Below, in pieces: positions 4,370-36,621 of a stretch of DNA of 64,000 nucleotides. The DNA is taken from NCBI RefSeq assembly GCF_023913755.1, contig NZ_JAMXBJ010000047.1, positions 186,001 through 250,000 of the forward strand. The letters are read 5' to 3'. The notes under the pieces were generated by a model. The model searched no databases. It was not told the origin of the DNA and worked only from the letters and a program-made list of their open reading frames with translations. Numbering within the stretch: position 1 is the first letter of the stretch; each line of letters begins with the position of its first letter. This DNA comes from Pseudarthrobacter cellobiosi (GTDB lineage: Bacteria; Actinomycetota; Actinomycetes; Actinomycetales; Micrococcaceae). The translations under genes and the position numbers were made by a program.

Positions 4370-6393
4370 GCACGCCGCACCGGCCGTCGTCGGGCGCTGG
4401 TTCCAACGCTGGAACCGCACCCGGCTCGAAAACCGGGACTGCCGACGTCGTACGCATCCCCCGACCGGCGGGTGGACCGGGACGCGGCGGACCGTTCGCG
4501 GGGATGAACGTCCCGGCGGAGAAGGCCATGAACTTCGGGCCGTCGGCCAAGCGGCTGCTGGGTACGCTGCGGCCGGAGCGGGCGTGGCTGCTGCTGGTGC
4601 TGATCATGGGGGTGGCCAGCGTGACGCTGTCGGTGATCGGGCCGCGGCTGCTGGGGGAGGGCACTAACCTGATTTTCGCGGGAGTAGTGTCGCGGGAGCT
4701 GCCCGCCGGGGTGAGCAAGGCGGAGCTGATCGCGCAGCTGCGGGCCGCTGGGGAGAACCAGAAGGCGGACATGCTCACGCCCATGGCGCTGACGCCGGGG
4801 CAGGGGATCGACTTCGCGGCGCTGTCCAGTGTGCTGCTGTGGGCGCTGGTGCTGTATGTGCTGGCGTCGGCGTTTATGTGGGTGCAGGCGTATGTGCTGA
4901 ACGGGGTGGTGCAGCGGACGGTGTTCGGGCTGCGCGAGGAGATCGAGGCGAAGATCCACCGGCTGCCGCTGCGGTATTTCGATTCGATCCAGCGCGGCGA
5001 GCTGCTGAGCCGGGTGACGAACGACGTGGACAACATTTCGCAGAGCCTGCAGCAGTCCATCAGCCAGGCGGTCACGTCGGTGCTGACCGTGGTGGGCGTG
5101 CTGGTGATGATGTTCATCCTCTCGCCCACGCTGGCGCTGATTGCGCTGGTGACCGTGCCGCTGACGCTGGGCATCACGGCGCTGATCGCCAAGCGCTCGC
5201 AGAAGCTGTTTGTGGCGCAGTGGAAGCACACGGGGGAGCTGAACGGGCAGACCGAGGAGACGTACACCGGACATGCGCTGGTGAAGGTGTTCGGCCGGCA
5301 GCGCGAGGTGGAGGAGCGGTTCCGGCAGAAGAACGTGGAGCTGTATGACGCGAGCTTCGGCGCGCAGTTCATTTCCGGGCTGATCATGCCGGCCATGACG
5401 TTCATCGGGAACCTGGTGTACGTGGGGATCGCGGTGGTGGGCGGCCTGCAGGTGGCGTCCGGGGCCATGCAGCTGGGCGATGTGCAGGCGTTCATCCAGT
5501 ACTCGCGGCAGTTCACCATGCCGCTGGCGCAGCTGGGGTCCATGGCCAACCTGCTGCAGTCCGGGGTGGCGTCGGCGGAGCGGGTGTTCTCGTTGTTGGA
5601 TGAGCCGGAGGAGTCTGCTGATCCTCCTAGTGGTGCTGCTGGTTTTGGGCGTGGCCGGCTGGTGTTTGAGGACGTCTCGTTCTCCTACTCGCCGGACAAG
5701 CCGCTGATTTCTTCGCTTTCTTTGGTGGCGGAGCCGGGGCAGACGGTCGCGATTGTGGGGCCGACCGGGGCGGGCAAGACCACGCTGGTGAACCTGATGA
5801 TGCGGTTCTACGAGCTGGATGCGGGCCGGATAACGCTCGACGGCGTGGACGTCACCTCAGTGCCCCGGCGCGAGCTGCGCTCGCGACTCGGGATGGTGCT
5901 GCAGGATACGTGGCTGTTCGGCGGGACCATCCGGGACAACATTGCGTACGGCCGGCCTACGGCTACGGAGGACGAGATCCTGGAGGCGGCGCGGGCGACG
6001 TATGTGGACAGGTTCGTGCACTCCCTGCCGGAGGGGTACGACACCGTGCTGGAGGACGAGGGTTCGAATGTGTCCGCCGGTGAGAAGCAGCTTTTGACGA
6101 TTGCGCGTGCTTTTTTGGCGCGGCCTTCTGTTTTGATCCTGGACGAGGCGACTTCTTCGGTGGACACCCGGACCGAGGTGCTGGTGCAGAAGGCGATGCG
6201 GGCTTTGCGGTCCGACCGGACTTCTTTTGTGATCGCGCACCGCCTGTCCACGATCCGCGACGCCGACCTTATCCTGGTGATGGAGGCCGGCCAGATCGTG
6301 GAGCAGGGAACGCACGCGTCGTTGCTGGCCGCGGGCGGGGCGTATTCGAGGCTGTATGAGGCGCAGTTCGCGGCTCCTGTGGCGGAGGTTTAG
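4366..6393 (+). CDS. ABC exporter half-transporter, catalytic-site subunit
   Basis: The 675-aa partner has a Gly/Pro-rich N-terminal extension of about 55 residues, then the membrane domain, then an ATPase with Walker [10 protein letters not shown] (465-473), signature VSAGE and Walker B D593-E594 with the catalytic glutamate intact. The ATGA overlap with the upstream half indicates coupled translation in a 1:1 ratio. A segment of about 60 residues ([19 protein letters not shown] and flanks) is inserted between the first two helices, as in many actinobacterial YheH/YfiC-type exporters. Codon choice becomes T-richer around 5590-5720 and 6060-6230. Confidence 0.92.
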
Positions 6394-6507
6394 GCCGGCA
6401 TTCAGGGTGAAGTTCATGCGCGCCAAGAAAACGACACTGAAAAGGGCCGCTCTTCGCCTCCACCCGTTCCGGGGCACAGCCGCTGCACGATCCAACCGAA
6501 CGACCAT

Positions 6508-7794
6508 CTATCGGGCACTACGCTGCAACCCACTGTTGATGTACTGCCTGATCTTAGCGACTTGCTGGGCATCAAATGCTTGTTCTCCATCTAGCCAGAC
6601 CGTCGATGTGTCCCATTGACGCTTGGCGCTGCTGCTTGGCGTGAGCAATACTCCAATTGTGGATCCGGGGACTCCTCCGATGCTCCGCCAGTAGTCTTCG
6701 TGATGCAGTTGCGTCCTTAAGAACAGGTGGTTCCTCATCATGGAATCGAGCTTTGAGGCAACGATGAAGACGATCGGGCACTGGTCGCCGGGATGCGGTA
6801 CAAAAACCCGGGTTTCTGTCTTGATACTTGAACCCCGGTGACGGGAAATGGTGCTCATGAACTTCAAGAGGACTCGACCAAGTTCGGGCCGGTACGCAGC
6901 CGGGACGGTGTCCAAGGACGTCAGCAGCTTCAGCCGGTCTGCCTCGGTGCTCTCGCCCATGTGAGTTGTGGCCACGTCTTCCATGATGATGCGGAAGAGC
7001 AGCGCGCCATCATCCGCGGCTTCCAGGGGCGCATACGGCGTTGAAACGACGGGTGCATCCTGTTCGAGACCGGCCAGGCTACGCAGTTTCTCAGGCATTT
7101 CTTTGGCCTCTGCCTGCAAGTCGGCCAGGGCCACCTGCATGTACCGGCTTGGCTCGGCACCTAGTTCTGCCGTCTCACCAGCTACACGCTGCAAATAGTG
7201 CAGTACAGACCTGGTGGACCTCAGGTGCTCGAACAGGAACTCCCAGTCGCGCCTGAGTAGAACAACGCACGGTATGGCGCCGGCTTCCTCCAGCGAAGGA
7301 ACAAATCCAGCAGGGGGAGCCGGGTGATCAACGATGACGACTGCAATCCATTGAAATAGTCCACCATCAATCTCAACGCGTCTCCCCCTCCCGCTCGTCA
7401 GGTTTTCCCGACGGTGAGCAAGGTGGCGGATGCTGCCTTTCGCCTGCTTGATGGCTTTGGTGATAGCACTCGTCAGCCAGCTCGCTTCCCGGTCCGGGGT
7501 GCCTGGTTCAGCGTTACGGGCCTTCACCTGGATTAGCGCTGCAATGCCGTCCGCAACAACAAGCCCGTCGCCCCGCTCCCGGACACCAGCCCCCTGGCGC
7601 TGTTGTTCGGGGAGGAATACGAAATCTGGCAAACCCCACCGGGCGGCTGAAACCCTTGTGGAATCCTCTGCAGCGGGCCCCACTTCAAGATCTGGCGGAA
7701 GCAGCGAAGCATTCGGGACATCCCGGACCATTACTCCGTCGGATGTTTCGACGACGAGGGTCAATGCAGGGAGATTACTACTCGCAACGGACAT
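6508..7794 (-). CDS. Uncharacterised protein with possible PD-(D/E)XK nuclease-like core
   Basis: I do not recognise this 428-aa protein. Near the N-terminus (about 65-105) it has GLPDFVFLPE followed by GDGLVVADGIAALIQVKARN. An acidic residue, a beta-strand and a Q-V-K motif in this spacing resemble the core of PD-(D/E)XK nucleases (D...QxK). The remainder is mixed alpha/beta without a clear motif. The ATG at 7794 is chosen over an in-frame start at 7860 because conserved-looking sequence starts just after it. It stands alone, as orphan defence or DNA-repair genes often do. A nuclease role is inference only. Confidence 0.55.
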   Translation of the reverse strand: MSVASSNLPALTLVVETSDGVMVRDVPNASLLPPDLEVGPAAEDSTRVSAARWGLPDFVFLPEQQRQGAGVRERGDGLVVADGIAALIQVKARNAEPGTPDREASWLTSAITKAIKQAKGSIRHLAHRRENLTSGRGRRVEIDGGLFQWIAVVIVDHPAPPAGFVPSLEEAGAIPCVVLLRRDWEFLFEHLRSTRSVLHYLQRVAGETAELGAEPSRYMQVALADLQAEAKEMPEKLRSLAGLEQDAPVVSTPYAPLEAADDGALLFRIIMEDVATTHMGESTEADRLKLLTSLDTVPAAYRPELGRVLLKFMSTISRHRGSSIKTETRVFVPHPGDQCPIVFIVASKLDSMMRNHLFLRTQLHHEDYWRSIGGVPGSTIGVLLTPSSSAKRQWDTSTVWLDGEQAFDAQQVAKIRQYINSGLQRSAR

Positions 7795-22960: not shown

Positions 22961-22998
22961 GAGCGGACGATGGCGAGAGATCCCGCCGTCGTCCGCTC
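22961..22998. repeat. Palindromic repeat R3
   Basis: GAGCGGACGA and TCGTCCGCTC outer arms with an imperfect centre lie between convergent genes; the right arm ends in the TAG stop of the minus-strand gene. It marks the left boundary of the Ter region. Confidence 0.85.
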
Positions 22999-24116
22999 TA
23001 CCTGTTGCGAAGCTTAGGGTCAACTATCTCTGTCCGGATCACTGCCGCCAGCGTCTGGACCGTTGTGGTGATTCCGGTATTCCGCTTGATTTCCTTTCGG
23101 ATGATGTCCAGCACCGAGTCGGACAGGATGACGTCCAGCAGCGCATCCGGCGATGTTGCCGCGCGGTGCTTCCACAGCTCATCGATCCGACGGCGCTTCA
23201 GCGCCTCCCGGTGGAGGAAGAACATCTTGTCCGCTTTTGCCTCCAGCGATTCAGGGCCGAGGAGGTCAACCTCGAACGCGAGATTCAAAATCACGGGGAG
23301 CCCACCGGTCAGGTGGTAGGCCTGCCAAACCTGGCCGTTGGTGAGGATCATCCATTCCACACCCTCGTTGACCGCATACATTTGGACCTGGCGAAGGTGG
23401 CGCTCATTGAGTTTCTGGCTCACCCGCTTGACCTCTATGAAGGCAATCAGCTGCTTGTCAATTCTGACGCCGTAGTCCGCGAAATCCTGCCTGACCATGT
23501 ATTCGGTGGTCAGGTCGCGGAATTTGTCATAGCCCAAACCCTCGCAGAGCATGTCCGTAATCAAAAGGCGGGTGTCGCCCTCATTGGCATCACGGGTGAG
23601 GAGATCGTGGAGTGGTTTGGTGAATCGCTGAACGGCGTCTTTAACCTGCTCATGGGCCTCGGACTCCCACTTCGGTCCCTTGGCAATTGGGGGAGCGGGT
23701 TTGATCTCCGCGATGACTGTGACGGCTTCGACGGCGTGGCTGTTTCCGTGTTCCGTGTCCGGGGAAACGACCGCCACGAGGCTTAATTCCATCGCCGGCG
23801 GCGCTGGCGCGTCGGCTGAATTTTCGTCGGGTGGAACGACTTGGAGAGCGTGGGCCGCACGCACGGGCCGCGACAATTCGTCGGGGAGCTGGACATGTGG
23901 GTCCACAACACCAAAAGCCGCCTGTTTCAACAGCCACTGGATTGTCGGCAACCATGGCTGGACGGCCTCCCTGCTCACACCCGGGGCATCAACGGTCCTC
24001 GCCGCGGAGATGGCCTCCAGATCGGCGATGCGCGGAACAAGGTGACCCTGCCCAGCTGCTTCAGTCGCCCACTGAGACAGCACCTGCAGACGCGCCTGAT
24101 ACTTGATGTCTGTCAT
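22998..24116 (-). CDS. Orphan type I restriction R-subunit N-terminal-like (HSDR_N) nuclease-fold protein
   Basis: The 372-aa protein contains an HSDR_N-like module in its C-terminal half: DMLCEGLGYDKFRDLTTEYMV, then DYGVRIDKQLIAFIEVKR (the D...ExK nuclease signature), then LRQVQMYAVNEGVEWMILTNG and W-Q-A-Y. There is no helicase motor and no HsdM or HsdS gene nearby. The ATG at 24116, behind GGGGGAAAA, is better than a TTG further upstream. Stand-alone proteins of this kind are often annotated as restriction endonuclease subunit R or GTPase-like. Its role may be defence or DNA processing, possibly linked to the divergent Ter operon. Confidence 0.72.
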   Translation of the reverse strand: MTDIKYQARLQVLSQWATEAAGQGHLVPRIADLEAISAARTVDAPGVSREAVQPWLPTIQWLLKQAAFGVVDPHVQLPDELSRPVRAAHALQVVPPDENSADAPAPPAMELSLVAVVSPDTEHGNSHAVEAVTVIAEIKPAPPIAKGPKWESEAHEQVKDAVQRFTKPLHDLLTRDANEGDTRLLITDMLCEGLGYDKFRDLTTEYMVRQDFADYGVRIDKQLIAFIEVKRVSQKLNERHLRQVQMYAVNEGVEWMILTNGQVWQAYHLTGGLPVILNLAFEVDLLGPESLEAKADKMFFLHREALKRRRIDELWKHRAATSPDALLDVILSDSVLDIIRKEIKRNTGITTTVQTLAAVIRTEIVDPKLRNR

Positions 24117-24426
24117 TTTTCCCCCATTTGAATTCAATCCCTACTGGAAATTGACTTCGTGTGAATGCCTTCCGGCAAGAGCCGTCCTGCTTTTGAGATT
24201 CGCCAATTAGACGAGACCATACACGGCCGCCTTGTCCGGCTCCGCCCGCGCCACGGCTTCGCCATCACCTCGATTCCGGCTAGGATCGCTCTCGAACCCG
24301 CCTGATCGGCATGGTCCGCGTCCTCGCCCCCACTAACTTCACATGTACGCACGGAACTAGCGCACGGCCGGAGTCGTTGGGACCTGAGAACTCGAGTATT
24401 CAAACTAGCTGGAGGTTGAGAAAATT
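24117..24426. promoter_or_regulatory. Promoter region of the Ter operon, no gene
   Basis: I see no coding frame in this 310-bp divergent gap. It must hold the promoters of the HSDR_N-type gene and of the Ter operon. GGAGGTTGAG at 24411-24420 is the ribosome binding site of the first terD, 11 nt from the ATG. No convincing -35/-10 pair was identified. Confidence 0.45.
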
Positions 24427-25017
24427 ATGGGATTGAGCTTGCAGAAGGGCCAGTCGCTGTCGCTGACCAAAAAAGACGGCGGATCGCTCACTAAGACCAA
24501 GATGGGGCTGGGCTGGGACTCGGCGGCCCCGGTCAAGAAGGGCTTTTTCGGAAAGGCCAAGTCGGTGGAGGTCGACCTCGATGCGTCGGCCATTTTCTTC
24601 GACGCGGCTGGCAAGTCGCTGGATCAGGTCTGGTACAACCAGCTGCAGAGCAAAGACGGCTCCACGCGTCATACCGGGGACAACCTGACGGGCGACGGCG
24701 ACGGCGATGACGAGACCATCCTGGTCAATTTGGAGCTCGTCTCCCCGGCAGTGGCACACATCGTCTTCGTCATCAGCAGCTACACCGGCCAGACCTTCGA
24801 CCAGGTGCAGAATGCCTTCTGCCGGCTGGTGGACGACTCCACGCCAGGAAGCCCGGAAATTGCCAAGTACCAGCTGACCGACTCGGGGACCCATTCGGCC
24901 ATGATCATGTCCAAAGTATCCCGTGACGGCGCGGGCTGGACCTTTAAGGCCATCGGGGAGCGGGCCCAGGGCCGCTCGGTCGCGGATCTGATCGCACCAG
25001 CTGCCGCCGTCCTCTAG
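24427..25017 (+). CDS. TerD-family stress protein, copy 1
   Basis: A 196-aa TerD/TerZ-like protein: GLGWDSA, VDLDASAIFFDAAGK, then the acidic calcium-binding stretch DNLTGDGDGDDE and the DQVQNAFCRLVDD strand. TerD proteins bind calcium and act at the membrane in tellurite, phage and stress phenotypes. It differs from copies 2 and 3 by a Lys-rich insertion (KKGFFGKAK) and a divergent C-terminus. Its stop codon is followed, in the same frame, by a piece of another terD. Confidence 0.9.
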   Translation: MGLSLQKGQSLSLTKKDGGSLTKTKMGLGWDSAAPVKKGFFGKAKSVEVDLDASAIFFDAAGKSLDQVWYNQLQSKDGSTRHTGDNLTGDGDGDDETILVNLELVSPAVAHIVFVISSYTGQTFDQVQNAFCRLVDDSTPGSPEIAKYQLTDSGTHSAMIMSKVSRDGAGWTFKAIGERAQGRSVADLIAPAAAVL

Positions 25018-25230
25018 TCGTTCGAGGCTCCCTTCTGCCGTGTGCTGAACCAGGACACGGATCAGGAAGTGGTCCGCTACGATTTGAGCGAGGACGCGGC
25101 ACCTGAAACGTCGATGATTTGCGCCGAGATTTACCGCAACCGTGCCGAATGGAAGTTCCGGGCGGTTGGCCAAGGCTATGCCACGGGCCTCCACGGCATC
25201 GCCACCGATTTCGGCATTTCGCTGGACTAG
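25018..25230 (+). pseudogene. 3' fragment of a fourth terD gene
   Basis: Directly after the TAG of terD copy 1 and in the same frame, 70 codons plus stop encode the C-terminal third of a TerD (APFCRVLNQD, VRYDLSEDAAPETSM, VGQGYATGLHGIATDFG). This is nearly identical in pattern to the end of copy 2. No plausible start with ribosome binding site exists. A deletion between tandem terD genes that removed the N-terminal two thirds explains the arrangement. Confidence 0.8.
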
Positions 25231-25268
25231 TTCGCAAGATCGATTCAACACGAAGGAATGGTAAAAAC

Positions 25269-25850
25269 ATGGCAGGACTAACCCTTACCAAAGGCAGCAA
25301 TCTGTCCCTGACGAAGAGCGCACCAGGCCTGACGAAGGCTGTGGTCGGGCTGGGCTGGGACCCGCGTACGACGACGGGAGAACCTTTCGACCTCGACGCC
25401 TCCGCCCTCCTGGTGGCGGCCGACGGCAAGGTCCGGTCCTCCGCGGACTTCATTTTCTACAACCAGCCCGCTGCCGCGGACGGCTCCGTCAGCCACCTGG
25501 GGGATAACCGGTCCGGCGAAGGCGCCGGCGACGACGAACAGATTCTGATCGATCTCTCCCTGGTTGCTGCCGACGTCGAGCGTGTTGTCATCGTGGTCTC
25601 CATCGACCAGGGTGAAACGCGCGGCCAGAACTTCGGCCAGGTGCGCAGCGCCTACTGCCGGGTGGTCAACCAGATCGATGAGAAGGAAATCGTCCGCTAC
25701 GACCTGAGCGAGGACGCGGCGCCCGAAACGTCGATGATTTTCGCCGAGGTCTACCGCAACAACGGGGACTGGAAGTTCAAGGCCGTCGGACAGGGATACG
25801 CCACCGGACTCGCCGGCATCGCCAAGGACTTCGGCGTCGACCTTAGCTGA
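25269..25850 (+). CDS. TerD-family stress protein, copy 2
   Basis: The 193-aa protein begins at ATG 25269 (MAGLTLTKGSNLSLTK) after an AAGGAATGG ribosome binding site. It is a canonical TerD: GLGWDPR, DLDASALL, DNRSGEGAGDDE calcium site, VVSIDQG and the C-terminal YDLSEDAAPETSM...GQGYATGL. Longer in-frame extensions over the upstream fragment are rejected. Expected role: calcium-dependent Ter complex component. Confidence 0.93.
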   Translation: MAGLTLTKGSNLSLTKSAPGLTKAVVGLGWDPRTTTGEPFDLDASALLVAADGKVRSSADFIFYNQPAAADGSVSHLGDNRSGEGAGDDEQILIDLSLVAADVERVVIVVSIDQGETRGQNFGQVRSAYCRVVNQIDEKEIVRYDLSEDAAPETSMIFAEVYRNNGDWKFKAVGQGYATGLAGIAKDFGVDLS

Positions 25851-25913
25851 TTAGTGTCCCGGACTGATTAGAGTCCGGACTGACTACTTCGGCTCCGCAT
25901 CGTTTCCACCTGA

Positions 25914-25949
25914 GGTGGTGTCCCGGCCAATCGAAACCGGGACACCACC
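25914..25949. terminator. Strong hairpin between terD copy 2 and telA
   Basis: Thirteen-bp perfect arms (GGTGGTGTCCCGG and complement) enclose a 10-nt loop, 22 nt before the telA-like start, without a T-tract. A 10-bp palindrome AGTCCGGACT (25872-25881) precedes it. It may be an intra-operon attenuator, an mRNA processing or stability element, or a regulator-binding site. Confidence 0.6.
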
Positions 25950-25971
25950 GACCTCTTGAAAAGGCAGCATC

Positions 25972-27165
25972 ATGAATTCTCCGTTGACTCCCCCCGACGC
26001 CGCAGAGGCTTCATTGGTGCTTCAGGCTCCGGACGCCCCTGCCATAGTTCAGCCCGAAGACGCTCCCGGCATGGTGCCGGTCCCCGACGAACGACGGGCC
26101 GAGATCAATAGGCAGGCCAGGGAGTTCGTGGCCGGTCTGGCCCAACTGGACGCGCGCAGCCCGGAGTTCTCCGCGCAGGTCGATGGCATCAATAAGATCG
26201 GCAGCGCCGAGATCACAGCGTCCAGCAACTCCTCCAGCAGGCTGCTGGAGCGTTCCTCGACGTCCATTGCCAGCGCCAAGAAGTCCGGGAACAGCGCTCA
26301 GGTTGCGGTCGCCAACACCCTGGGTGAGCTGCGGAGCACGGTGGAGGAGCTCACTCCCAACCAGGCCAACATGAGCGTTGGCAAGAAGATCCTGGGCTTC
26401 ATCCCCGGCGGCAACAAGCTGGCCAAGTACTTCCAGAAGTACGAGTCGGCGCAGACCCAGCTGAACCAGATCATCAAGGCCCTGATGACGGGCCAGGACG
26501 AGCTGCTCAAGGACAATGCCAGCCTGGCCAACGAAAAAGTCCAGCTCTGGGAAACGATGCAGGCGTTGAGCGAATATGCCGTCTTCGCCAAGGCACTGGA
26601 TGCCGCCTGCATGGAGAAGATCGACTCCACCCGCGCCGCCGGGCAGATTACCGAGGCGCAAAAGATGGAGGCGGACGTCCTGTTCCCCGTGCGTCAGCGC
26701 CACCAGGACATCCTGACCCAGCTCGCCGTCTCGGTGCAGGGGTACCTGGCGATGGACCTGATCCGCAAGAACAACGTTGAACTGATCAAGGGTGTGGAGC
26801 GGGCGCGGACCACCACCATCTCGGCCCTGCGTACGGCGGTGATCGTGGCCCAGGCCCTGGCCAACCAGAAGATGGTCCTGGACCAGATCGACGCCGTCAA
26901 TACCACCACCAACAACATGATCTTGAGCACCAGCGAAATGCTCAAGGACCAGACTTCCCGAATCCACCAGCAGGCGTCCAGCTCCGGGGTCAGCGTGGAG
27001 ACGCTGCAGAAGGCCTTCGACAATGTGTTCGCCACGATGGATGCCATCGACACCTTCCGGTCGGAGGCGGCCAAGAACATGGAGAGCACCGTCGGGGCCC
27101 TCGAAGCCAGCGTGCTGAAGGCCAAGCCGTACCTGGAACGCGCGCGGCAGGGCAAGACAGACTAA
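25972..27165 (+). CDS. telA: TelA/KlaA-family toxic anion resistance protein
   Basis: The 397-aa all-helical protein matches the TelA family: an N-terminal variable tail, VGKKILGFIPGGNKLAKYFQKYE, long coiled coils and the MDLIRKNNVELIKGVERARTTTISALRTAV block. Homologues are Bacillus YceH and plasmid KlaA. It lies inside the Ter operon, as in the yceCDEFGH arrangement. Family members confer tolerance to tellurite and cell-envelope stress by an unsolved mechanism, probably at the inner membrane surface. Confidence 0.92.
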   Translation: MNSPLTPPDAAEASLVLQAPDAPAIVQPEDAPGMVPVPDERRAEINRQAREFVAGLAQLDARSPEFSAQVDGINKIGSAEITASSNSSSRLLERSSTSIASAKKSGNSAQVAVANTLGELRSTVEELTPNQANMSVGKKILGFIPGGNKLAKYFQKYESAQTQLNQIIKALMTGQDELLKDNASLANEKVQLWETMQALSEYAVFAKALDAACMEKIDSTRAAGQITEAQKMEADVLFPVRQRHQDILTQLAVSVQGYLAMDLIRKNNVELIKGVERARTTTISALRTAVIVAQALANQKMVLDQIDAVNTTTNNMILSTSEMLKDQTSRIHQQASSSGVSVETLQKAFDNVFATMDAIDTFRSEAAKNMESTVGALEASVLKAKPYLERARQGKTD

Positions 27166-27196
27166 GTGACGGCAGAAAGCAGCAGGCGGTAACGCA

Positions 27197-27700
27197 GTGA
27201 TTGGTAAGTTCATCGGCTCCCTGTTCGGCGGCGCCCCCGTGCCGGGCATCACCGAACAGGCTCCCGAGCCAACGGCCGACGCCGAGATGGCGCAGACCGC
27301 CGGATCCCTGGACAACCTGCGCAGCGCCATCCGGCGGGCCGGCGCTGAGCTGCCGACGTCGGTGTCCTCGCAGTTGCGCCAAATCGACGATGTGCTCCGC
27401 CCGCTGGTGAGCCATATGGTCGAGCAGGGGGCTTCGATGGAGCAGCAGGTGCTGTTGAATTCCATCGTCTGCAGCTACATCCCGGATCCCCTGCGCACTT
27501 ATCTGGCGCTCCCGGACAGTGCCAGGACTGAGGAATCCGGGCCGACGCGGCTGCTGGCGGAACAGTTCGCCACGCTCGAGGAAATAGCTCGTGACCTGGC
27601 CAACCAGGTGCGGATCGGTGCCATTGCCGAGCTGTCCACCCACGGCCGGTTCCTCGAGGATAAGTTCGCGCCGTCCAGCCTTCGTCTGGAAGGCCGCTGA
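27197..27700 (+). CDS. Ter-operon helical protein, function unknown
   Basis: I do not recognise this 167-aa protein. It starts with a hydrophobic MIGKFIGSLFGG amphipathic segment, then a Pro/Glu linker, then helices (SLDNLRSAIRRAGAELPTSVSSQLRQIDDVLRPLV and TRLLAEQFATLEEIARDLANQVRIG). Start is GTG 27197, and its stop overlaps the next terD start by 1 nt. Its fixed place between telA and terD suggests a structural partner of TelA or TerD, perhaps membrane-associated through the N-terminal helix. Confidence 0.75.
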   Translation: MIGKFIGSLFGGAPVPGITEQAPEPTADAEMAQTAGSLDNLRSAIRRAGAELPTSVSSQLRQIDDVLRPLVSHMVEQGASMEQQVLLNSIVCSYIPDPLRTYLALPDSARTEESGPTRLLAEQFATLEEIARDLANQVRIGAIAELSTHGRFLEDKFAPSSLRLEGR

Positions 27701-28251
27701 TGGGCAATCTTGTGGCCGGGGCCAACGCCGCGCTGACGGCCGAGAACCCGGGACTGAGCAAGATCCTGGTCGGCTTGGGCTGGCAGTCCATTCCCAGCCG
27801 GGGGCCCCAGTCCGAGCTGGTTCCGCTGGCGATCATGTGCGACGCCGGCGGCCGTGCCGTCTCGAACGATCACCTGGTGTTTTTCAACCAGATCGCCAGC
27901 CCGGAGGGCTCGGTGGCCTTCGCCGGCACCGAGGACCAGGAGCAGATCGACGTCGACCTGTCCCTGGTGCCGGCCGGCGTCGCCAAGATTACGTTCATTG
28001 TCTACGTGGACCCCGATCTCCGCGGGCCAGGCACCTTCTCCGCCATCCGCAACCAGTACATCCGGGTGGCTACCGCACAGAATCAGGAGCTCGTGCGCTT
28101 CGATATTCCCCAGTCCCCGCAGGACAACATCACCGCCATGATGTTCGGCGAACTGTACCGCCACCGCGAAGACTGGAAGTTCCGGGCCCTGGGCCAGGGC
28201 TACACGACTGGCCTGCGCGGCGTGGCAGCCGACTTCCGGTTCGATGTCTAG
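27700..28251 (+). CDS. TerD-family stress protein, copy 3 (divergent)
   Basis: The 183-aa protein keeps the TerD frame (GLSKILVGLGWQS, DLSLVPAGVAKITFIVYVD, RFDIPQSPQDNITAMMFGELYRH, LGQGYTTGL) but the calcium-binding acidic loop is shortened (AGTEDQEQIDVD) and the DLDAS box reads PLAIMCDAGG. It may bind metal differently from copies 1 and 2. Translation is coupled to the preceding gene. Confidence 0.9.
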   Translation: MGNLVAGANAALTAENPGLSKILVGLGWQSIPSRGPQSELVPLAIMCDAGGRAVSNDHLVFFNQIASPEGSVAFAGTEDQEQIDVDLSLVPAGVAKITFIVYVDPDLRGPGTFSAIRNQYIRVATAQNQELVRFDIPQSPQDNITAMMFGELYRHREDWKFRALGQGYTTGLRGVAADFRFDV

Positions 28252-28254
28252 GCG

Positions 28255-29007
28255 ATGGCACTGAACAGGTCCAGCACCCGCACGGACATCACGTACCTCA
28301 GCCGCCGGGTCAAGCCGGCCGCCCGCGCTGAAACATCCGCCCCGGCAACAGCGCCGCCGTCGTCTCCGGTGTCCCCTGCGGCCGTGACGTCGCTGTCCCT
28401 AAGCCGATCGTCCGCGCCCACATCGCCAGCACCAGCCACGTCAGCGGCGACCCCATGGGCCGGAGCCCGGCCTGCAGCCGAGACCCGGCCCACCAGGCTC
28501 TTTCCGGCTCCCGGGATCGGCGAGACGAGGCTGCTCAACGCCCAGACACCGATGATCCGCCTCGACCGGCGCCAGTCGGCGATTGGCAGCCTGCTGGTGA
28601 CGGGGGCAACCTCGGCGGCATGGGAAAGCCCAGAACGCGTGACCGGGGCAATGACCGTGGACGGCGCCGTCTCCGGCACTTCCATCATGTGCTCGGGAAA
28701 CCGCCCGCTTGTGGGCTACATGGACGGGACCGCCGTCGTGGCACTTCGGCATATCCGCGAGCTGCGCCGGGCGCTTTTTATCGGACAGCCTTCGGCCCCG
28801 CTGACCGTGGAGATCTTCGACGGCGGCACCGGGACGCTGCCCGCGGCCAGCGGGGAGCTCAGATACATCCTGTCCCTGACCGCGATCGATGGAGTCATCG
28901 AGCTGCGCGCCGAACCGGTGCCGGCCCGCGCCGACGCCGCCGAGCTCTGGCAGGAATTCGGCTTTTCCATGACCACCAACGCTGCCGCCCGTCGGCAGGG
29001 ACACTGA
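28255..29007 (+). CDS. Ter-operon protein with Ala/Pro-rich tail and unknown beta-rich domain
   Basis: The 250-aa protein has a low-complexity Ala/Pro/Ser/Thr segment (about 20-80) after a short conserved-looking start (TDITYLSRRV). A folded C-terminal part of about 150 residues follows, rich in predicted strands (GAMTVDGAVSGTSIMC, LTVEIFDGGTGTL, ELRYILSLTAIDGVIEL). No known motif is visible; the strand pattern could be TerD-like but key residues are missing. It begins 3 nt after the terD stop and ends 9 nt before the lyase gene, so it belongs to the operon. Confidence 0.72.
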   Translation: MALNRSSTRTDITYLSRRVKPAARAETSAPATAPPSSPVSPAAVTSLSLSRSSAPTSPAPATSAATPWAGARPAAETRPTRLFPAPGIGETRLLNAQTPMIRLDRRQSAIGSLLVTGATSAAWESPERVTGAMTVDGAVSGTSIMCSGNRPLVGYMDGTAVVALRHIRELRRALFIGQPSAPLTVEIFDGGTGTLPAASGELRYILSLTAIDGVIELRAEPVPARADAAELWQEFGFSMTTNAAARRQGH

Positions 29008-29016
29008 CGGGACGGC

Positions 29017-30267
29017 ATGCGCCATTTCAGTTTTCTTAGCGACGAGAATGCCTCGCGCCTTTTCCACATCGCTCCGCAGGAGCTGAGCCTGGGCTCGGCG
29101 CCAGCGGTGCTGGCCGTGGCCTTGGGCGCCACGCTCTACACTCCGGCGGACCGCCCGAACCTGGCTCAGGATATCCGCAAACAGGCTGCCCGCGGCTGCC
29201 TGAGCATGGTGATCTGCCTCGAGGATTCCATCGCCGATGATGCGGTGGACTCTGCAGAGACCAACGTCGTGAACACGCTGACCCGGCTGCATGCCGGTTC
29301 CGCCGGGCCGCGCCGCGGGAGCGGCATCGGCAGCGACGACGACAGGAGTGGCGACAGCGGCAGCGACGCTGTCGGCGCCTTCCACTCCGACGAGGGGCCG
29401 TTGCTGTTTCTCCGGGTCCGCACGCCGGAACAGATGCTGAGCCTGGCCAGCCGCTGCGGTAAGGCACTGGACCTGCTGGTGGGCTTTGTCATTCCGAAGT
29501 TCGAGAATGAGACCGGCCAGGCCCAGCGGTTCCTGGATGCCCTGCATACCATCAACGATTCACGCGGGGGCGGCCGCAGGCTGCGGATCATGCCCATCAT
29601 GGAATCTCCGCTCGTGATCCACGGCGAGACCCGGGCCAGGACTTTGTCCGGTATCTGCGACGTGCTGCAAGCCAACAAGGAGGATGTCCTGGCCGTCCGC
29701 GTGGGCGCCACGGACATGTCCAGTGCTTTCGGCCTGCGCCGCTCCCGGGACCTGACCATCTATGACGTCAAGGTGGTCGCCTCCGTGATCGGGGACATCG
29801 TGAATATGCTGGGCCGGCCGGACAACGGATTCGTGATCTCCGGCCCGGTCTGGGAGCACTACAGCAACAGCGAGCGGGTGCTGCGCCCCCTGCTGCGGCG
29901 CACTCCCTTCGCCGACGCAAATGAGATGCCGCTGCGCGATCGGATTCTGACGGCCAACCTCGACGGGCTGATCCGCGAAATCGAACTGGACCTGGCCAAC
30001 GGGCTGCTGGGCAAGACGGTCATCCACCCCACCCATGTCCCGCTGGTCCATGCCATGTGCGTCGTCAGCCACGAGGAATACGTGGACGCGCTGGAGATCG
30101 CCGGCAAGAACGGCGGCGGCGCCTCGGCCTCGCCGTACGGCAACAAGATGAATGAGATGAAGCCCCATCAGGCCTGGGCCGGCCAGACGCTGCTGCGTGC
30201 CGCAGCGTTTGGTGTTGCCGCCGAGAACATCACTTACGTTGACCTTCTGGAAGCGAGCATGAATTGA
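29017..30267 (+). CDS. CitE/HpcH-HpaI aldolase-family lyase of the Ter biosynthetic module
   Basis: A TIM-barrel lyase-family protein of 416 aa: LYTPADRPNL, MVICLEDSIADD (metal-binding Glu/Asp), FLRVRTPEQM, VIPKFEN, MESPL, VRVGATDMSSAFGLRRS and KTVIHPTHVPLV. About 22 residues of Gly/Ser/Asp low complexity (around 102-123) are inserted after helix 2. The Ter-associated biosynthetic module of Anantharaman and colleagues includes such a CitE-like enzyme with PRTase and HAD genes, proposed to make a nucleoside-like metabolite. The product is unknown. The next gene's TTG start overlaps this stop. Confidence 0.88.
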   Translation: MRHFSFLSDENASRLFHIAPQELSLGSAPAVLAVALGATLYTPADRPNLAQDIRKQAARGCLSMVICLEDSIADDAVDSAETNVVNTLTRLHAGSAGPRRGSGIGSDDDRSGDSGSDAVGAFHSDEGPLLFLRVRTPEQMLSLASRCGKALDLLVGFVIPKFENETGQAQRFLDALHTINDSRGGGRRLRIMPIMESPLVIHGETRARTLSGICDVLQANKEDVLAVRVGATDMSSAFGLRRSRDLTIYDVKVVASVIGDIVNMLGRPDNGFVISGPVWEHYSNSERVLRPLLRRTPFADANEMPLRDRILTANLDGLIREIELDLANGLLGKTVIHPTHVPLVHAMCVVSHEEYVDALEIAGKNGGGASASPYGNKMNEMKPHQAWAGQTLLRAAAFGVAAENITYVDLLEASMN

Positions 30268-32813
30268 GCCAGGACATCTGGACCGGCGGTTTTGTGCGGG
30301 ACGCCCTCGGCGTCGGCATCACGACGGACCACTCCGCGAGCCTGCTGCCGGTCGAGGACCTCGTGGGACTGGCACTGCGCCGCAACCCCAAGCGGGCCCA
30401 CCTGCTGGTGTCCCGGGTGCTCGGCAAACACGTCCCCTCTGAACCCGGGCTGGTCATAGCCGCCGGTGAGTTGCTGGGAGTGCTCGTCGGCGAGGCTCTG
30501 TCCGATACCCCGGAATCCGTATCCGTCACTCCGACCATTGCGGCCGGGCTCGCCGCGCTCCTGCGCGGGGAAACGCACGACGGCGGCCGGCGGGCCGCGT
30601 TGCAGAGCCTCCGTCTGCAGCTCGCCGGGTTGAAGACCCGCAACCCGCAGATCATTACCATCGGCTACGCGGAGACGGCCACCGGCCTGGGACGGCTTGT
30701 GGCTGACACGATCGGCTCGTATTACATCCATTCCTCCCGGCACGCCCCGGCGGGCGCCGCCGCCTACGGGTCCTTCGAGGAATCACATTCGCACGCCACC
30801 TCACACCGGCTGCTCCCCACGGATCCGCGGCGCCTGAACGCCCCTGAACCGGTGGTGCTGGTCGACGACGAACTCAGCACCGGGGCCACGATCATCAACA
30901 CCATCACCGAACTCCACGCCTTGGCTCCCCATCCCAGCTACACGGTGGCTGCGCTCGTGGACCTGCGGACACCGGGGGACCGGGCCCGGTTCGACGAACT
31001 CGCGGAGCGGCTCGGGACCCGCATCCGGGTGGTGGCTCTGGGCACGGGGCAGATCACCCTGGGCGCGGACATTCTCCAGCGTGCCGATGAGGTGGTGGCC
31101 GCACTGCCGCAGGCGCCGGCAACCCCGGATTGGGCACCCGGAACGGTGACCTTCCTCAGGCCCGGGACGGTCGGCGCAGCTGTCCGCAGCGACCGGTTCG
31201 GCAACGGCGGTTCCCCCGCCGCGGCTACGCTGGCCGACGTCGGGGAGTCGATCCACCGGGCCCTTCCGCAGGCGGCCGGCGCGGAGTCCGTGCTGGTCCT
31301 GGGCAGCGAGGAGTTCATCCACGTGCCCCTGGCCGTGGCCGATGCACTGGACCGGCTGAATCCGGACCGCGGCGTCCGGTTCTCCACTACCACCCGATCC
31401 CCGATCGTCGCCCTGGACCGCCCGGATTACGCCATCACGGGCACGGTGCGGTTCGCCAGCCATGACGTCACCGTGGACGGCCCCGGTGTGCGCTTCGCCC
31501 ACAATGTTTCCTCCGTCGGCCGCAGATTCGGCACGATCGTCCTGATGCCCGAACCCGGGACCCCCGCGGAGGTCCTCTCGGGTCCCGGCAGCGTGACGGA
31601 GGCGCTTGTCGCCGTGTGCAGCGCGGTCGTGGTCGTCCTCCTGCCCGCCTCACCCGTCCTCCCGGCGCCGCTGGCCGGACCGGCGTTCGGTTCCTACGCA
31701 CCGGAGGAAGTCACCTGGTTGCTCCAGGACATCGGTGATGCCGCGCTGGAAGCGCCCGCGGCCGATCGTGAAGCCGCGATGCAATCGGGCGGGGCGAGCT
31801 ATGCAGAGTCCCTGCCGATCGAATATTCGCCCTCGCAGCAGTACCAGCAGCTGTACCGGGACGCCTTGAAACGCTCCGCCGCGCGCGTCGCGCAGGCCGT
31901 GGGCACCGTGACCGAGATGGCGCTGGCCGCGCGCCGGAACCGGCCTGTGTTGGTTTCCCTGGCCAGGGCCGGCACACCGGTCGGCATCCTGATGCGCCGC
32001 TGGGCCCAGCAGATCCACGGCATCGACCTTCCCCACTACACGATGAGCATCGTGCGCGGCGTCGGGCCGGACCAGACGGCCCTGCGATACCTGGCCGCCC
32101 ACCATGACCCGGAGCAGATCCTCTTTGTGGACGGCTGGACCGGAAAGGGCGCGATCACCCGCGAGCTCTCGGCCGGCCTCGACCGCTTCGCCGAAACCGG
32201 CGGTGTTGCCTTCCCCAAGGACCTCGCCGTGCTCGCCGATCCCGGGCACTGCGCCGCCATGTACGGCACGCGCGAGGACTACCTCATACCCTCCGCCTGC
32301 CTGAACTCGACGGTGTCCGGGCTCGTGTCCCGCACGGTCTTCAACACGGAGTTCATCGGCCCCGACGACTTCCACGGGGCCAAGTTTTACCACCAGCTGC
32401 GCGGTGACGACGTCTCGCGGGAGTTCTTGGCCGCCGTCTCTGGCCATTTCCCAACCGTCGAATCGTTCGCCCGGGCAGAAGCCGGGGCGCTGCTGGCCGC
32501 GGACCGGACGCCCACCTGGGCCGGCAGGCTCGCCGTGGAAAGCCTCGGCCGGGAACACGGGATCGACGACCTGAACCTCATCAAACCCGGAGTCGGCGAG
32601 ACAACACGCGTGCTGCTGCGCAGGGTGCCGTGGAAGATCCTGGTGCGTCCTGATGCCGCGCCCGAGATAGCCCACATCCTGCTGCTGGCTCAGCAGCGCG
32701 ATGTACCGGTGCTGGAGGTGCCGCACCTGCCCTTCAGCTGCGTGGGGCTCATCGATCCGACGTTCAGCGGGGTATCCGGCGCTGATGGAGTCACTGCGGC
32801 GGCCGCCCTGTGA
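30264..32813 (+). CDS. PRTase-TRSP-StiP-PELOTA fusion protein of the Ter system
   Basis: This 849-aa protein fuses modules usually on separate genes. Residues 1-290 are a phosphoribosyltransferase with the PRPP loop VVLVDDELSTGAT (197-209). About 295-470 is the TRSP domain, with the actual signature T-R-S-P at 377-380. About 515-750 is a StiP-type domain (VLVSLARAGTPVGILMRRW, ILFVDGWTGKGAI, a second PRTase-like loop). The C-terminal 80 residues (LLRRVPWKILVRP, HLPFSCVGL) are PELOTA-like, a possible RNA-binding fold. Start is TTG 30264, in a TTGA overlap with the lyase gene. Probably a bifunctional glycosyl or ribosyl transfer enzyme; chemistry not proven. Confidence 0.88.
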   Translation: MSQDIWTGGFVRDALGVGITTDHSASLLPVEDLVGLALRRNPKRAHLLVSRVLGKHVPSEPGLVIAAGELLGVLVGEALSDTPESVSVTPTIAAGLAALLRGETHDGGRRAALQSLRLQLAGLKTRNPQIITIGYAETATGLGRLVADTIGSYYIHSSRHAPAGAAAYGSFEESHSHATSHRLLPTDPRRLNAPEPVVLVDDELSTGATIINTITELHALAPHPSYTVAALVDLRTPGDRARFDELAERLGTRIRVVALGTGQITLGADILQRADEVVAALPQAPATPDWAPGTVTFLRPGTVGAAVRSDRFGNGGSPAAATLADVGESIHRALPQAAGAESVLVLGSEEFIHVPLAVADALDRLNPDRGVRFSTTTRSPIVALDRPDYAITGTVRFASHDVTVDGPGVRFAHNVSSVGRRFGTIVLMPEPGTPAEVLSGPGSVTEALVAVCSAVVVVLLPASPVLPAPLAGPAFGSYAPEEVTWLLQDIGDAALEAPAADREAAMQSGGASYAESLPIEYSPSQQYQQLYRDALKRSAARVAQAVGTVTEMALAARRNRPVLVSLARAGTPVGILMRRWAQQIHGIDLPHYTMSIVRGVGPDQTALRYLAAHHDPEQILFVDGWTGKGAITRELSAGLDRFAETGGVAFPKDLAVLADPGHCAAMYGTREDYLIPSACLNSTVSGLVSRTVFNTEFIGPDDFHGAKFYHQLRGDDVSREFLAAVSGHFPTVESFARAEAGALLAADRTPTWAGRLAVESLGREHGIDDLNLIKPGVGETTRVLLRRVPWKILVRPDAAPEIAHILLLAQQRDVPVLEVPHLPFSCVGLIDPTFSGVSGADGVTAAAAL

Positions 32814-33619
32814 ATTCCGTCCTGCTGGCCTCGGACCTTGACCGGACCCTCATCTACTCCGCGAAGGCCTTCTTTCTGGACGTCCCCGACCACCTGGCAC
32901 CGGACATGGTGGTTGCGGAGCTCCACGAGGGGGTGCCGATCTCGTTTATGACCCGCACCGCCGAGCGGCTGCTGCTCGAACTGACCCGGACAACCATCTT
33001 CGTCCCAGTGACCACCCGGACCGAGGCCCAGTACCGGCGGGTCCGGCTGCCCGGTGCCGTGCCTGAATACGCGGTCACCACCAACGGCGGTGTCCTGCTC
33101 AAGAACGGCGAGCCGGACATCGAGTGGCAGACCACAGTCGGGCAACGGGTCTCGGAGGGCTCGGCGCCGCTGGCCGTCATCGAGGAATTTTTGTCCCGGG
33201 AGGCCTACCGGTCCTGGATTCTCCGGCTGCGCCAGGCCGAAGAGCTCTTCCTCTACGCCATCGTGGACCGGGAGCTCATGCCCGCGGAATTCGTGCGGGA
33301 GCTGGACGCATGGTGTGCCTCGCTCGGCTGGACGGTGTCCGTCCAGGGCCGCAAGCTCTACTGTGTGCCGCACGCGGTGACGAAGAACAGCGCCGTCGCA
33401 GAAGTCGCCCGGCGGACTGGGGCCTCCCGGGTGATCGCCGCCGGGGATTCGCTGCTGGACGGGCCGATGCTGGCCGAAGCTGACGTCGCCTTCCGTCCCT
33501 CCCACGGAGAACTCGCCGACGTCGACTTCCGCAGGGATCACCTGCGCGTCACCGATGCCCGCGGCATCCTGGCAGGCGAAGAAATCTCCCGACGCATACA
33601 TGCGCTGGTCCAGCGCTGA
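32810..33619 (+). CDS. HAD-superfamily phosphatase of the Ter module
   Basis: A Cof-type HAD hydrolase of 269 aa: motif I SDLDRT (D9 and D11), motif II VPVTTRT, motif III Lys in a VTKN segment, and motif IV AAGDSLLDGPM. Start is GTG 32810, overlapping the fusion gene stop (GTGA). It is the last gene of the operon and probably dephosphorylates the ribosylated intermediate made by the PRTase/lyase pair. The Ter-associated ATP-grasp and TerC genes seen in other genomes are not found here. Confidence 0.88.
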   Translation: MNSVLLASDLDRTLIYSAKAFFLDVPDHLAPDMVVAELHEGVPISFMTRTAERLLLELTRTTIFVPVTTRTEAQYRRVRLPGAVPEYAVTTNGGVLLKNGEPDIEWQTTVGQRVSEGSAPLAVIEEFLSREAYRSWILRLRQAEELFLYAIVDRELMPAEFVRELDAWCASLGWTVSVQGRKLYCVPHAVTKNSAVAEVARRTGASRVIAAGDSLLDGPMLAEADVAFRPSHGELADVDFRRDHLRVTDARGILAGEEISRRIHALVQR

Positions 33620-33653: not shown

Positions 33654-33767
33654 GGCCTGACCAGGAACTCGGCCGTGATGTACGGGCCCAAGGGCCTGCG
33701 CTTCAATGCAGTGGACCCCGGCCCCACCATCACCAACATCAACGGGGCCATCCTTGCGTCCGACGGC
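33654..33767 (+). pseudogene. SDR 3'-end relic 1 (internally deleted)
   Basis: The plus strand encodes GLTRNSAVMYGPKGLRFNAV-DPGPTITNI joined directly to NGAILASDG. This is the C-terminal portion of a classical SDR lacking about 55-60 codons between TITNI and NGAI, as shown by comparison with relics 2 and 3. The last codons run straight into palindrome R4, whose left arm is partly the SDR sequence itself. Confidence 0.8.
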
Positions 33768-33789
33768 AGGAGGTCCCGCCGTCGTCCGC
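33756..33789. repeat. Palindromic repeat R4, fused to SDR relic
   Basis: The right arm is a standard TCCCGCCGTCGTCCGC. The left arm reads GCGTCCGACGGCAGGA, imperfect because its first part is the Ala-Ser-Asp-Gly coding sequence of the SDR relic. It marks the right boundary of the Ter region. Confidence 0.8.
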
Positions 33790-34644: not shown

Positions 34645-34918
34645 GCCGTGGGCCTGACCAAGAGTTCGGCCGTTATGTTCGGGCCGAAGGGCCTGCGCTT
34701 CAACGCCGTGGCTCCCGGCCCCACCATCACCAACATCGTGGCCAACTGGGGGATCCCAGCTCGCGGCCGAACGCCTCGGACCGCTGATGCAGGCCACCGT
34801 CCCCACGCCCGCCACCGCGGCGCAGCTCGCCGCCTCCATCGCCTGCATCCTCAGCGACGACCGCACCAACGTCAACGGAGCCATCCTGGCGTGCGACGGC
34901 GGCTGGTCGGCGCTGTAG
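34645..34918 (+). pseudogene. SDR 3'-end relic 2 (frameshifted)
   Basis: This encodes VGLTKSSAVMFGPKGLRFNAV, APGPTITNIVANWG, then breaks frame: a GGGG run (about 34747-34750) has one G more than relic 3. It resumes in the other frame with PLMQATVPTPATAAQL and finishes NVNGAILACDGGWSAL-stop. It lacks the first two thirds of an SDR and is certainly non-functional. Palindrome R5 follows 18 bp later. Confidence 0.85.
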
Positions 34919-34936
34919 GGGAGCGGCACCAAAAGC

Positions 34937-34974
34937 AAGCGGACGACGGCGGGACGTCCCGCCGTCGTCCGCTT
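34937..34974. repeat. Palindromic repeat R5, 38-bp perfect palindrome
   Basis: The two 19-bp arms (AAGCGGACGACGGCGGGAC and its complement) match perfectly with no loop. It is the most perfect copy. It is preceded by GCACCAAAAGCA, a flank shared with R6, R7 and R12. Confidence 0.9.
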
Positions 34975-36370: not shown

Positions 36371-36549
36371 TAGCCAACTGGGGATCCCGGCTCGCGGCCG
36401 AACGCCTCGGCCCGCTGACGCAAGCCACCGTCCCCACGCCCGCCACCGCGGCCCAGCTCGCCGCCTCCGTCACCTTCTTGCTCAGCGACGACGGCACCAA
36501 CGTCAACGGCGCCATCCTCGCGTCCGACGGCGGCTGGTCGGCGCTCTAA
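36371..36549 (+). pseudogene. SDR 3'-end relic 3
   Basis: The plus strand encodes ANWGSRLAAERLGPLTQATV, PTPATAAQLAASVTFLLSDD and NVNGAILASDGGWSAL-stop, the intact last 58 codons of an SDR. The preceding 75 bp are unrelated junction DNA, so the 90-aa open frame that starts at 36277 is chimeric. Palindrome R6 begins 21 bp after the stop. The shared tail with relic 2 is nearly identical at the DNA level. Confidence 0.85.
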
Positions 36550-36569
36550 GGGAGCGGCACCAAACGCAA

Positions 36570-36603
36570 ACGGACGACGGCGGGAGGCCCCGCCGTCGTC
36601 CGT
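36570..36603. repeat. Palindromic repeat R6
   Basis: Fifteen-bp perfect arms (ACGGACGACGGCGGG and complement) flank a 4-nt centre, between SDR relic 3 and the convergent reductase gene, with the conserved GCACCAAACGCAA flank upstream. Confidence 0.88.
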
Positions 36604-36621
36604 AACTGGCCGGCAGGAGGG

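Follow-up and report, generated by a model that had tools for sequence, protein, structure and literature searches.

A stress-response system with a biosynthetic module, Ter, was reportedly described by Anantharaman, Iyer and Aravind in 2012. It joins TerD proteins and TelA to a CitE-like lyase, PRTase_2-TRSP and StiP-PELOTA proteins (PRTase, phosphoribosyltransferase) and a phosphatase of the haloacid dehalogenase (HAD) type. All of these are also encoded by an operon of nine co-oriented open reading frames (ORFs) at positions 24427-33619 (+) of a 64,000-nucleotide stretch of Pseudarthrobacter cellobiosi DNA, hereafter called the window (contig NZ_JAMXBJ010000047.1, positions 186,001 to 250,000). 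Unlike the described system, the window operon has no local TerC, TerB or ATP-grasp gene, its PRTase and StiP parts are fused, and it includes two proteins without a known family. At the Escherichia coli IncHI ter locus (L114, NZ_AP027628.1) the genes for PRTase-TRSP, HAD, StiP-PELOTA and CitE-like proteins are likewise adjacent, but they are separate and accompanied by ATP-grasp, DUF4236, TerW and a TerD-family gene with TerABCDE on the other strand.

Outside the Ter system, gPRT enzymes, reportedly described by Kelly in 2022, offer a point of comparison. Excerpts of PMC10299916 describe the Bcs3 CriT-CrpP pair of the Haemophilus influenzae type b capsule as a PRTase-like fold that uses phosphoribosyl pyrophosphate (PRPP), with a HAD phosphatase as partner; a two-step logic of this type appears also for gPRT-PRP enzymes in the excerpted text of PMC11127046.

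The window operon is a real and conserved stress-response cluster, which probably makes a small ribose-containing signal molecule. On balance we lean towards reading it as a Ter stress operon whose last three genes form a PRPP-using module: PRTase_2 and StiP would ribosylate, the HAD enzyme would dephosphorylate, the lyase would act on the acceptor, and TerD and TelA would respond, a chemistry that we infer. Two Ter enzymes, StiP and the HAD phosphatase, thereby receive a reading that is more precise and open to test. The features concerned are:

29017..30267 (+): CitE-like C-C bond lyase, 416 amino acids (C-C_Bond_Lyase PF15617, E 1.3e-110)
30264..32813 (+): PRTase_2-TRSP-StiP-PELOTA fusion, 849 amino acids, four Pfam domains in one frame
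31689..32438 (+): StiP domain within the fusion, predicted PRTase-like fold (conservation and StiP-only model)
32810..33619 (+): putative HAD-IIB-type phosphatase, 269 amino acids (invariant residues in alignment A6; match to PDB 6CJ0/6D3V, E 1.5e-6)

Domains of the fusion protein

The fusion is composed of PRTase_2 (residues 33-262, E 2.9e-59), TRSP (311-430, 7e-22), StiP (476-725, 1.9e-100) and PELOTA_1 (752-831, 7.4e-32). An AlphaFold2 model of the whole protein (predicted local distance difference test, pLDDT, 80.6; predicted template modelling score, pTM, 0.64) was compared with known structures by VIA-align, and residues 27-265 showed an APRT-like fold (APRT 5zc7, Z 11.9). Related loci, numbered with an L, came from GTDB contigs searched with the alignment of the fusion; the best 80 of at least 594 related stretches were used and describe the nearest relatives. 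Alignment A3 has 44 rows and draws on 43 of these 80, L098 (in-frame stop), L033 (matches in shifting frames) and 35 others, the latter for the sake of a small set, being left out. PRTase_2 carries a classical PRPP loop (VLVDDELSTGAT) of the DDxxxTGxT type, in which D201 D202 E203, S205 T206 G207 and T209 are invariant in all rows of A3. By its modelled fold and this loop, the domain is a type I PRTase. PELOTA gave a weak match to L7Ae-type RNA-binding proteins (best E 0.018) and was found at the C-terminus of all seven StiP proteins scanned, in one of them below the cut-off (E 0.00057). The initial annotation had made its reading depend on structure prediction for the PRTase and PELOTA parts; the check supported PRTase_2 by the APRT-like fold and PELOTA by the weak L7Ae match.

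Conservation and fold of StiP

StiP is called a cysteine protease in the description of Pfam PF11202 and in RefSeq, and the protease name is widespread; in the searches made we met no experimental basis for it. PF11202 is named PRTase_1 in excerpts of a 2026 paper (PMC13109261), and the excerpted text of PMC7824862 counts nucleobase PRTases among the components of the Ter system, together with HAD enzymes. To take StiP for a PRTase is thus the older view, to which we add a comparison with CriT and a check of the protease name. No paper linking StiP with CriT was found in the open-licence literature, and such a link may exist elsewhere.

We aligned 11 StiP proteins from actinobacteria, E. coli, Bradyrhizobium, Pseudomonas, an IMG/VR contig and the distant relative L031. 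StiP-PELOTA contained 33 invariant positions, of which 27 lie within StiP and none is a cysteine; the best cysteine column was occupied in 7 of the 11 sequences. Fourteen of the 27 positions reside in three PRTase-type loops, RAGxPxG, SxxxxxGxD and FxDGWTxxG, which correspond to the pyrophosphate- and phosphate-binding loops of PRTases. A cysteine protease that processes a Ter protein would agree with the database name and with Cys679, kept in all 44 actinobacterial rows of A3, but L114, L115, L117, L150 and L031 have Ile or Leu at position 679, and the modelled fold and the earlier Pfam name PRTase_1 speak for a PRTase. Rejected on cysteine conservation, a protease seems very improbable to us, and StiP is probably something else, judged by conservation and model. 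Among the fold matches listed for StiP there was no protease, which by itself excludes nothing.

The StiP-only AlphaFold2 model (pLDDT 77.5, pTM 0.80) looks like a PRTase-type fold. Its highest VIA-align scores were obtained with Bcs3 (8a0c, Z 11.2, root mean square deviation 4.1 over 200 residues; 8a0m, Z 10.8, 4.2 over 197), followed by PyrR (Z 10.5-9.3 over 139-148 residues; 1ufr, Z 10.5 over 145) and then by HGPRTs. The Bcs3 matches were also the longest, reaching residue 268-269 through the post-core helix, whereas the other rows ended by 250. All 50 matches listed (Z 8.4-11.2) were Bcs3, PRTases or, in one case, a ppGpp-bound hypothetical protein. Within the whole-fusion model, residues 527-742 matched Bcs3 8a0c at Z 10.6. 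Furthermore, the PF11202 model hit a 197-residue PyrR-like PRTase, identified as such by eye, at 1.0e-4, below the cut-off. PDB matches to PyrR and APRT obtained with a mixed profile of the fusion ran via PRTase_2-like stretches only and were discarded as uninformative for StiP.

A number of results weigh against a PRTase assignment. D623-G624 is invariant where PRTases have a vicinal DD, and we therefore file StiP as PRTase-like and non-canonical. Thirteen of its 27 invariant positions are not accounted for by the three loops, among them H614, E634, D659-P660 and S689-R690. The Z gap between CriT and PyrR is below 1, which VIA-align counts as a tie. With StiP alone, no Foldseek match reached E <= 0.001, and the list held, besides PRTases (probability 0.93-1.00), cysteine desulfurases and SIS-type proteins (0.25-0.87). 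In hhalign comparisons StiP showed no link to PRTase_2 (probability 0.2, E 0.35) and a weak one to PyrR (probability 17.5, single-pair E 0.0014), in a test in which the undoubted PRTase_2 itself reached only probability 42 against PyrR. PDB sequence searches with the StiP profile or a single protein listed no PRTase.

According to the main rival explanation, StiP is a PRTase-fold regulator like PyrR that would bind nucleotides or PRPP, and RNA via PELOTA, and would tune the Ter genes, so that only PRTase_2 makes the metabolite. PyrR rows directly follow CriT, PyrR was the first Foldseek match, and the regularly present PELOTA domain as well as the DG in place of the DD pair would suit a regulator. 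StiP shares with PyrR and the purine PRTases the PRTase core, an Arg/Gly/Pro loop and a D-containing PRPP loop, but its loop FVDGWTGKG has no second Asp and comes out shorter in the alignment. Against a regulator, the loop residues of StiP, including SxxxxxGxD, are invariant in 11 of 11 sequences, and CriT, whose acidic residues D680 and E818 are not vicinal, departs from the DD pair as well and is yet active, as described in excerpts of PMC10299916. We regard a PyrR-like role as possible but doubtful.

CriT itself differs from the PRTase-like StiP proposed here in that it has the split pair D680/E818 (excerpts of PMC10299916) in place of D623 and G624 and acts on a polymer; structurally aligned with the StiP model, it shares 8% identity. 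StiP has no acidic residue in loop 1; D603 and D623 are invariant candidates for a split pair of the CriT type.

HAD phosphatase and CitE-like lyase

The HAD protein of the window matched Hydrolase_3 at only 0.017 in Pfam and a HAD-IIB/MPGP-type NCBIfam model at 4.5e-7, below the cut-off of the latter. Residues D9, D11, T68, K192, D213 and D217, which we take to be the catalytic residues of HAD motifs I-IV, were invariant in the 10 sequences of alignment A6. A phmmer comparison with PDB 6CJ0 and 6D3V, deposited as 'trehalose phosphatase', gave E 1.5e-6.

A much closer counterpart of these structures is encoded by the ter locus of a Pseudomonas plasmid (L150), where the HAD gene is situated between the PRTase and StiP genes. 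Its product matched 6D3V at E 2.1e-158 over 251 residues, is nearly identical to it, and has cysteines at positions 85, 231 and 239. Because Cys85 and Cys231 are the residues named for an extrachromosomal P. aeruginosa trehalose-6-phosphate phosphatase (TPP) in excerpts of PMC6838324, an excerpted text in which neither 6D3V nor 6CJ0 occurs, the L150-type HAD is presumably this TPP (PDB 6D3V, 6D3W, 6CJ0). Apparently, therefore, one Ter-pathway enzyme already has a crystal structure under another name and was assayed as a trehalose-6-phosphate phosphatase. A paper linking the P. aeruginosa TPP with a ter operon was not found in the open-licence literature; the link may exist elsewhere. The window HAD is homologous to the TPP, at low similarity.

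This raises the alternative that the HAD protein is a genuine trehalose-6-phosphate phosphatase and that the module makes a trehalose-related osmolyte, as the near-identity of the ter-plasmid protein with an apparently assayed TPP (PMC6838324, excerpts) would suggest. However, the genes of the window operon include no trehalose-6-phosphate synthase, none is annotated around L113-L115 or L150, and inspection of the L117 ORFs by eye showed none either; PRTase domains are the constant partners of the enzyme. We consider a trehalose pathway improbable.

The lyase profile matched citrate/acyl-CoA lyase structures (best 5.5e-11), and E69, D70, R133, E196 and D233 were invariant in 8 sequences.

Proposed pathway

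In the PRPP-using module that we favour, PRTase_2 and StiP would each move a 5-phosphoribosyl group from PRPP, in the case of StiP perhaps to an acceptor other than a nucleobase, as for CriT. The HAD enzyme would then strip a phosphate off the ribosylated product, and the lyase may form or trim the acceptor via a C-C bond reaction. The product is predicted to signal to TerD and TelA at the membrane. Fusion of PRTase and StiP would couple two steps. A further point counts on the opposite side: the link to a phosphatase runs via a distant homologue (E 1.5e-6) classed by trehalose-6-phosphate, not by ribosyl phosphate.

By analogy, we tentatively suggest that the Ter metabolite could be a ribosylated polyol, sugar or acyl compound, not an ordinary nucleoside. 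StiP might then be a soluble, RNA-linked glycosyltransferase of the CriT type, partnered by the HAD enzyme as CriT is by CrpP, and the fusion might channel two phosphoribosyl transfers. A PRTase-like StiP together with a sugar-phosphatase HAD allows defined assays, namely PRPP consumption and phosphatase substrates, and points metabolomics for the Ter product at ribosylated compounds.

Distribution of fused and split genes

All of the best 80 loci were actinobacterial and had the order lyase-fusion-HAD. In seven of them (Arthrobacter, Subtercola, Sinomonas, Curtobacterium) the operon was of the window type and included TelA as well as the two family-less proteins. The remaining 73, all from Streptomyces, combined the triad with other TerD genes, none of them with the two family-less proteins. 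Alignment A8 comprised 28 of the best 80 loci and L117. Of 246 genomes sampled across the phylum, 12 had StiP (PF11202), with a match that passed the cut-off in 11, and the domain was patchy in the same family (48 of 295 sampled genomes, 7 of 32 genera); from the 48 family genomes, stretches of 11 were taken.

The initial annotation had singled out the four-domain fusion enzyme. Its presence stands, with four Pfam domains in one frame, but it is not unusual: 43 of the 44 further loci tried also had the fusion as a single uninterrupted frame, which makes it an ordinary feature of Actinomycetota, and we rejected it as a novelty. Among 47 full-length StiP rows of the same family, 18 had an open frame below 700 amino acids, and split PRTase/StiP arrangements were found in L145, L148 and L113. 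On a StiP tree of 31 chosen rows the fused or split state changed 4 times, at least 3 of these changes being forced by well-supported branches. PRTase, StiP, lyase and HAD were encoded by separate genes on E. coli, Pseudomonas and Tsukamurella plasmids and on one IMG/VR contig (L117), the only true relative among 14 IMG/VR pattern matches. The fusion matched 2566 plasmid records, and the StiP gene was named cysteine protease in 38 of the 40 rows listed.

Upstream of the split biosynthetic module, L117 contains at 2877-4016 a gene whose product has, by eye, a TerD-like N-terminal part followed by a trypsin-like protease; at the matching place in L150 a gene is annotated as trypsin-like. In L075 (Sinomonas), two ORFs of opposite orientation (3506-6690) separate the TelA gene from that of the 167-residue protein; one encodes a solute-binding/VWA protein and the other has no family.

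Remaining genes of the operon

Upstream of the lyase gene, six further genes were identified:

24427..25017 (+): TerD protein 1, 196 amino acids (Pfam PF02342, E 7.9e-46), its orthologue in relatives being the first of the TerDs
25269..25850 (+): TerD protein 2, 193 amino acids (PF02342, 2.2e-78)
25972..27165 (+): TelA, 397 amino acids (PF05816, 4.3e-86)
27197..27700 (+): conserved protein without known family, 167 amino acids, no Pfam match
27700..28251 (+): TerD protein 3, 183 amino acids (PF02342, 2.5e-48)
28255..29007 (+): conserved protein without known family, 250 amino acids, no Pfam match (alignment A5)

All nine frames are open, and the earlier start of TerD protein 2 in the ORF list (25119) is not needed. 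From TelA to HAD the gaps do not exceed 31 nucleotides, with overlaps of 1, 4 and 4 nucleotides; larger gaps of 251 nucleotides, holding a TerD remnant, and 121 nucleotides follow the first and second terD gene. The Ter core is present with three TerD proteins, one remnant and TelA as membrane-linked component, and the biosynthetic module is complete for lyase, PRTase_2-TRSP, StiP-PELOTA and HAD. ORFs and Pfam thus confirmed the nine-gene Ter operon of the initial annotation with its TerDs, TelA, lyase, fusion and HAD phosphatase.

Orthologues of the 167-residue protein, in which GAIAELSxHGRFLxD is invariant (alignment A4), were found in 7 of the best 80 loci and in all of 12 further loci of the same family. 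The 250-residue protein, found in the same number of best loci and in 11 of the 12, consists of a short motif at the N-terminus, a low-complexity linker and a conserved C-terminal part; that it is a degenerate TerD was not supported (hhalign against TerD, E 0.15). Compared with PDB sequences, the two proteins gave no convincing match, the best (E 0.004 and 0.046) being viral spike S2 helices and a Fanconi protein. Defence-system models matched none of the nine operon proteins at E <= 0.01. Between 24100 and 33900 no sigma-70-like promoter was detected (0.9 expected), and of 9 terminator-like sites (4.3 expected) none lay at the operon end; neither a promoter nor a terminator was assigned.

Against L138, the one close relative compared, the ratio of non-synonymous to synonymous substitution rates (dN/dS) was 0.035-0.178 in eight of the nine genes (dS 0.03-0.14), in which selection looks purifying. 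The 250-residue protein gave 0.80 at a dS of only 0.024, too little to interpret. Because the gene order recurs in relatives and dN/dS is low in eight genes, the operon is more than a chance arrangement. The dS values were uneven, with 0.065-0.137 for the first five genes and 0.024-0.033 for the last four, which hints at recombination.

Genes lost from this copy

The gap behind the first terD gene contains one more feature:

25024..25230 (+): C-terminal third of another terD, preserved as an in-frame remnant (TerD profile 125-187; PF02342, E 3.9e-22 at C30:211024-211212)

This terD is intact in 14 loci (L035, L075, L090, L095, L112, L139, L140, L142-L146, L148 and L149) and identically truncated in L033 and L138; L034 has no such gene. 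In 17 loci (7 of the best 80 and 10 of the family) the sequence reaches the upstream side of the first terD; L141 and L147 fall short and were not counted. Fourteen of the 17 have a TerC-type gene directly upstream, 13 times DUF475 and once TerC, whereas L033, L138 and L142 have neither. DUF475 is a relative of TerC, one Streptomyces protein matching both families (6.3e-140 and 1.7e-19). The window operon has near copies in L033 (Arthrobacter sp. Hiyo4) and L138, which also have no DUF475, and we therefore ascribe the loss of this gene to the window lineage as a whole.

In agreement with the initial annotation, the nine ORFs gave no Pfam match to TerC, TerB or ATP-grasp. The search for terC proposed there was run and yielded three TerC-family genes in the genome, all on other contigs. 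The genome contained no DUF475 at E <= 1 and no TerB above the cut-off (best E 0.09). Its one ATPgrasp_Ter match was just above the cut-off in a search that was positive in 14 of 14 control genomes as well, and lies in a frame that we read as the large subunit of carbamoyl-phosphate synthase (CarB-like); there is no convincing Ter ATP-grasp in the genome. Of 'reduced or distributed', the wording of the initial annotation, the first part is borne out by the 14 of 17 loci with an upstream TerC-type gene, and the second fares poorly in view of these genome searches. The lack of ATP-grasp is not special to the window operon: a tblastn search with the E. coli protein found it in none of the best 80 loci, although such a search may overlook a gene that has diverged or that lies past the end of a short contig. 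As the gene is present in the E. coli and Pseudomonas ter loci, we take ATP-grasp as a mark of subtype and not of the module. The window operon is a trimmed actinobacterial variant of the known Ter system, and we propose that, since the adjacent TerC-type gene is lost, either TelA alone or a TerC encoded elsewhere in the genome serves as the membrane component.

The absence of DUF475 and the truncated terD in the window, L033 and L138 would also fit an operon that is a decaying remnant. The open frames and the low dN/dS in eight genes contradict decay, which appears most unlikely.

At the place where relatives carry DUF475, the window encodes a 379-residue protein (22998-24137, -) with similarity to the N-terminus of type I restriction R subunits (HSDR_N_2, E 8.9e-6).

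Downstream DNA

Downstream of the operon, fragments of the 3'-end of a gene, by eye that of a short-chain dehydrogenase, are repeated at 33731-33775, 34741-34971 and 36373-36605. With the 233-base fragment as probe, at least 34 matches were counted in the genome, a number and spread that are incomplete since 40 of 229 first-look candidates were scored; most matches covered the hairpin only, and 30 of the 34 were located on contigs C30 and C47. This hairpin is GC-rich, and the fragments at 34741-34971 and 36373-36605 run into it.

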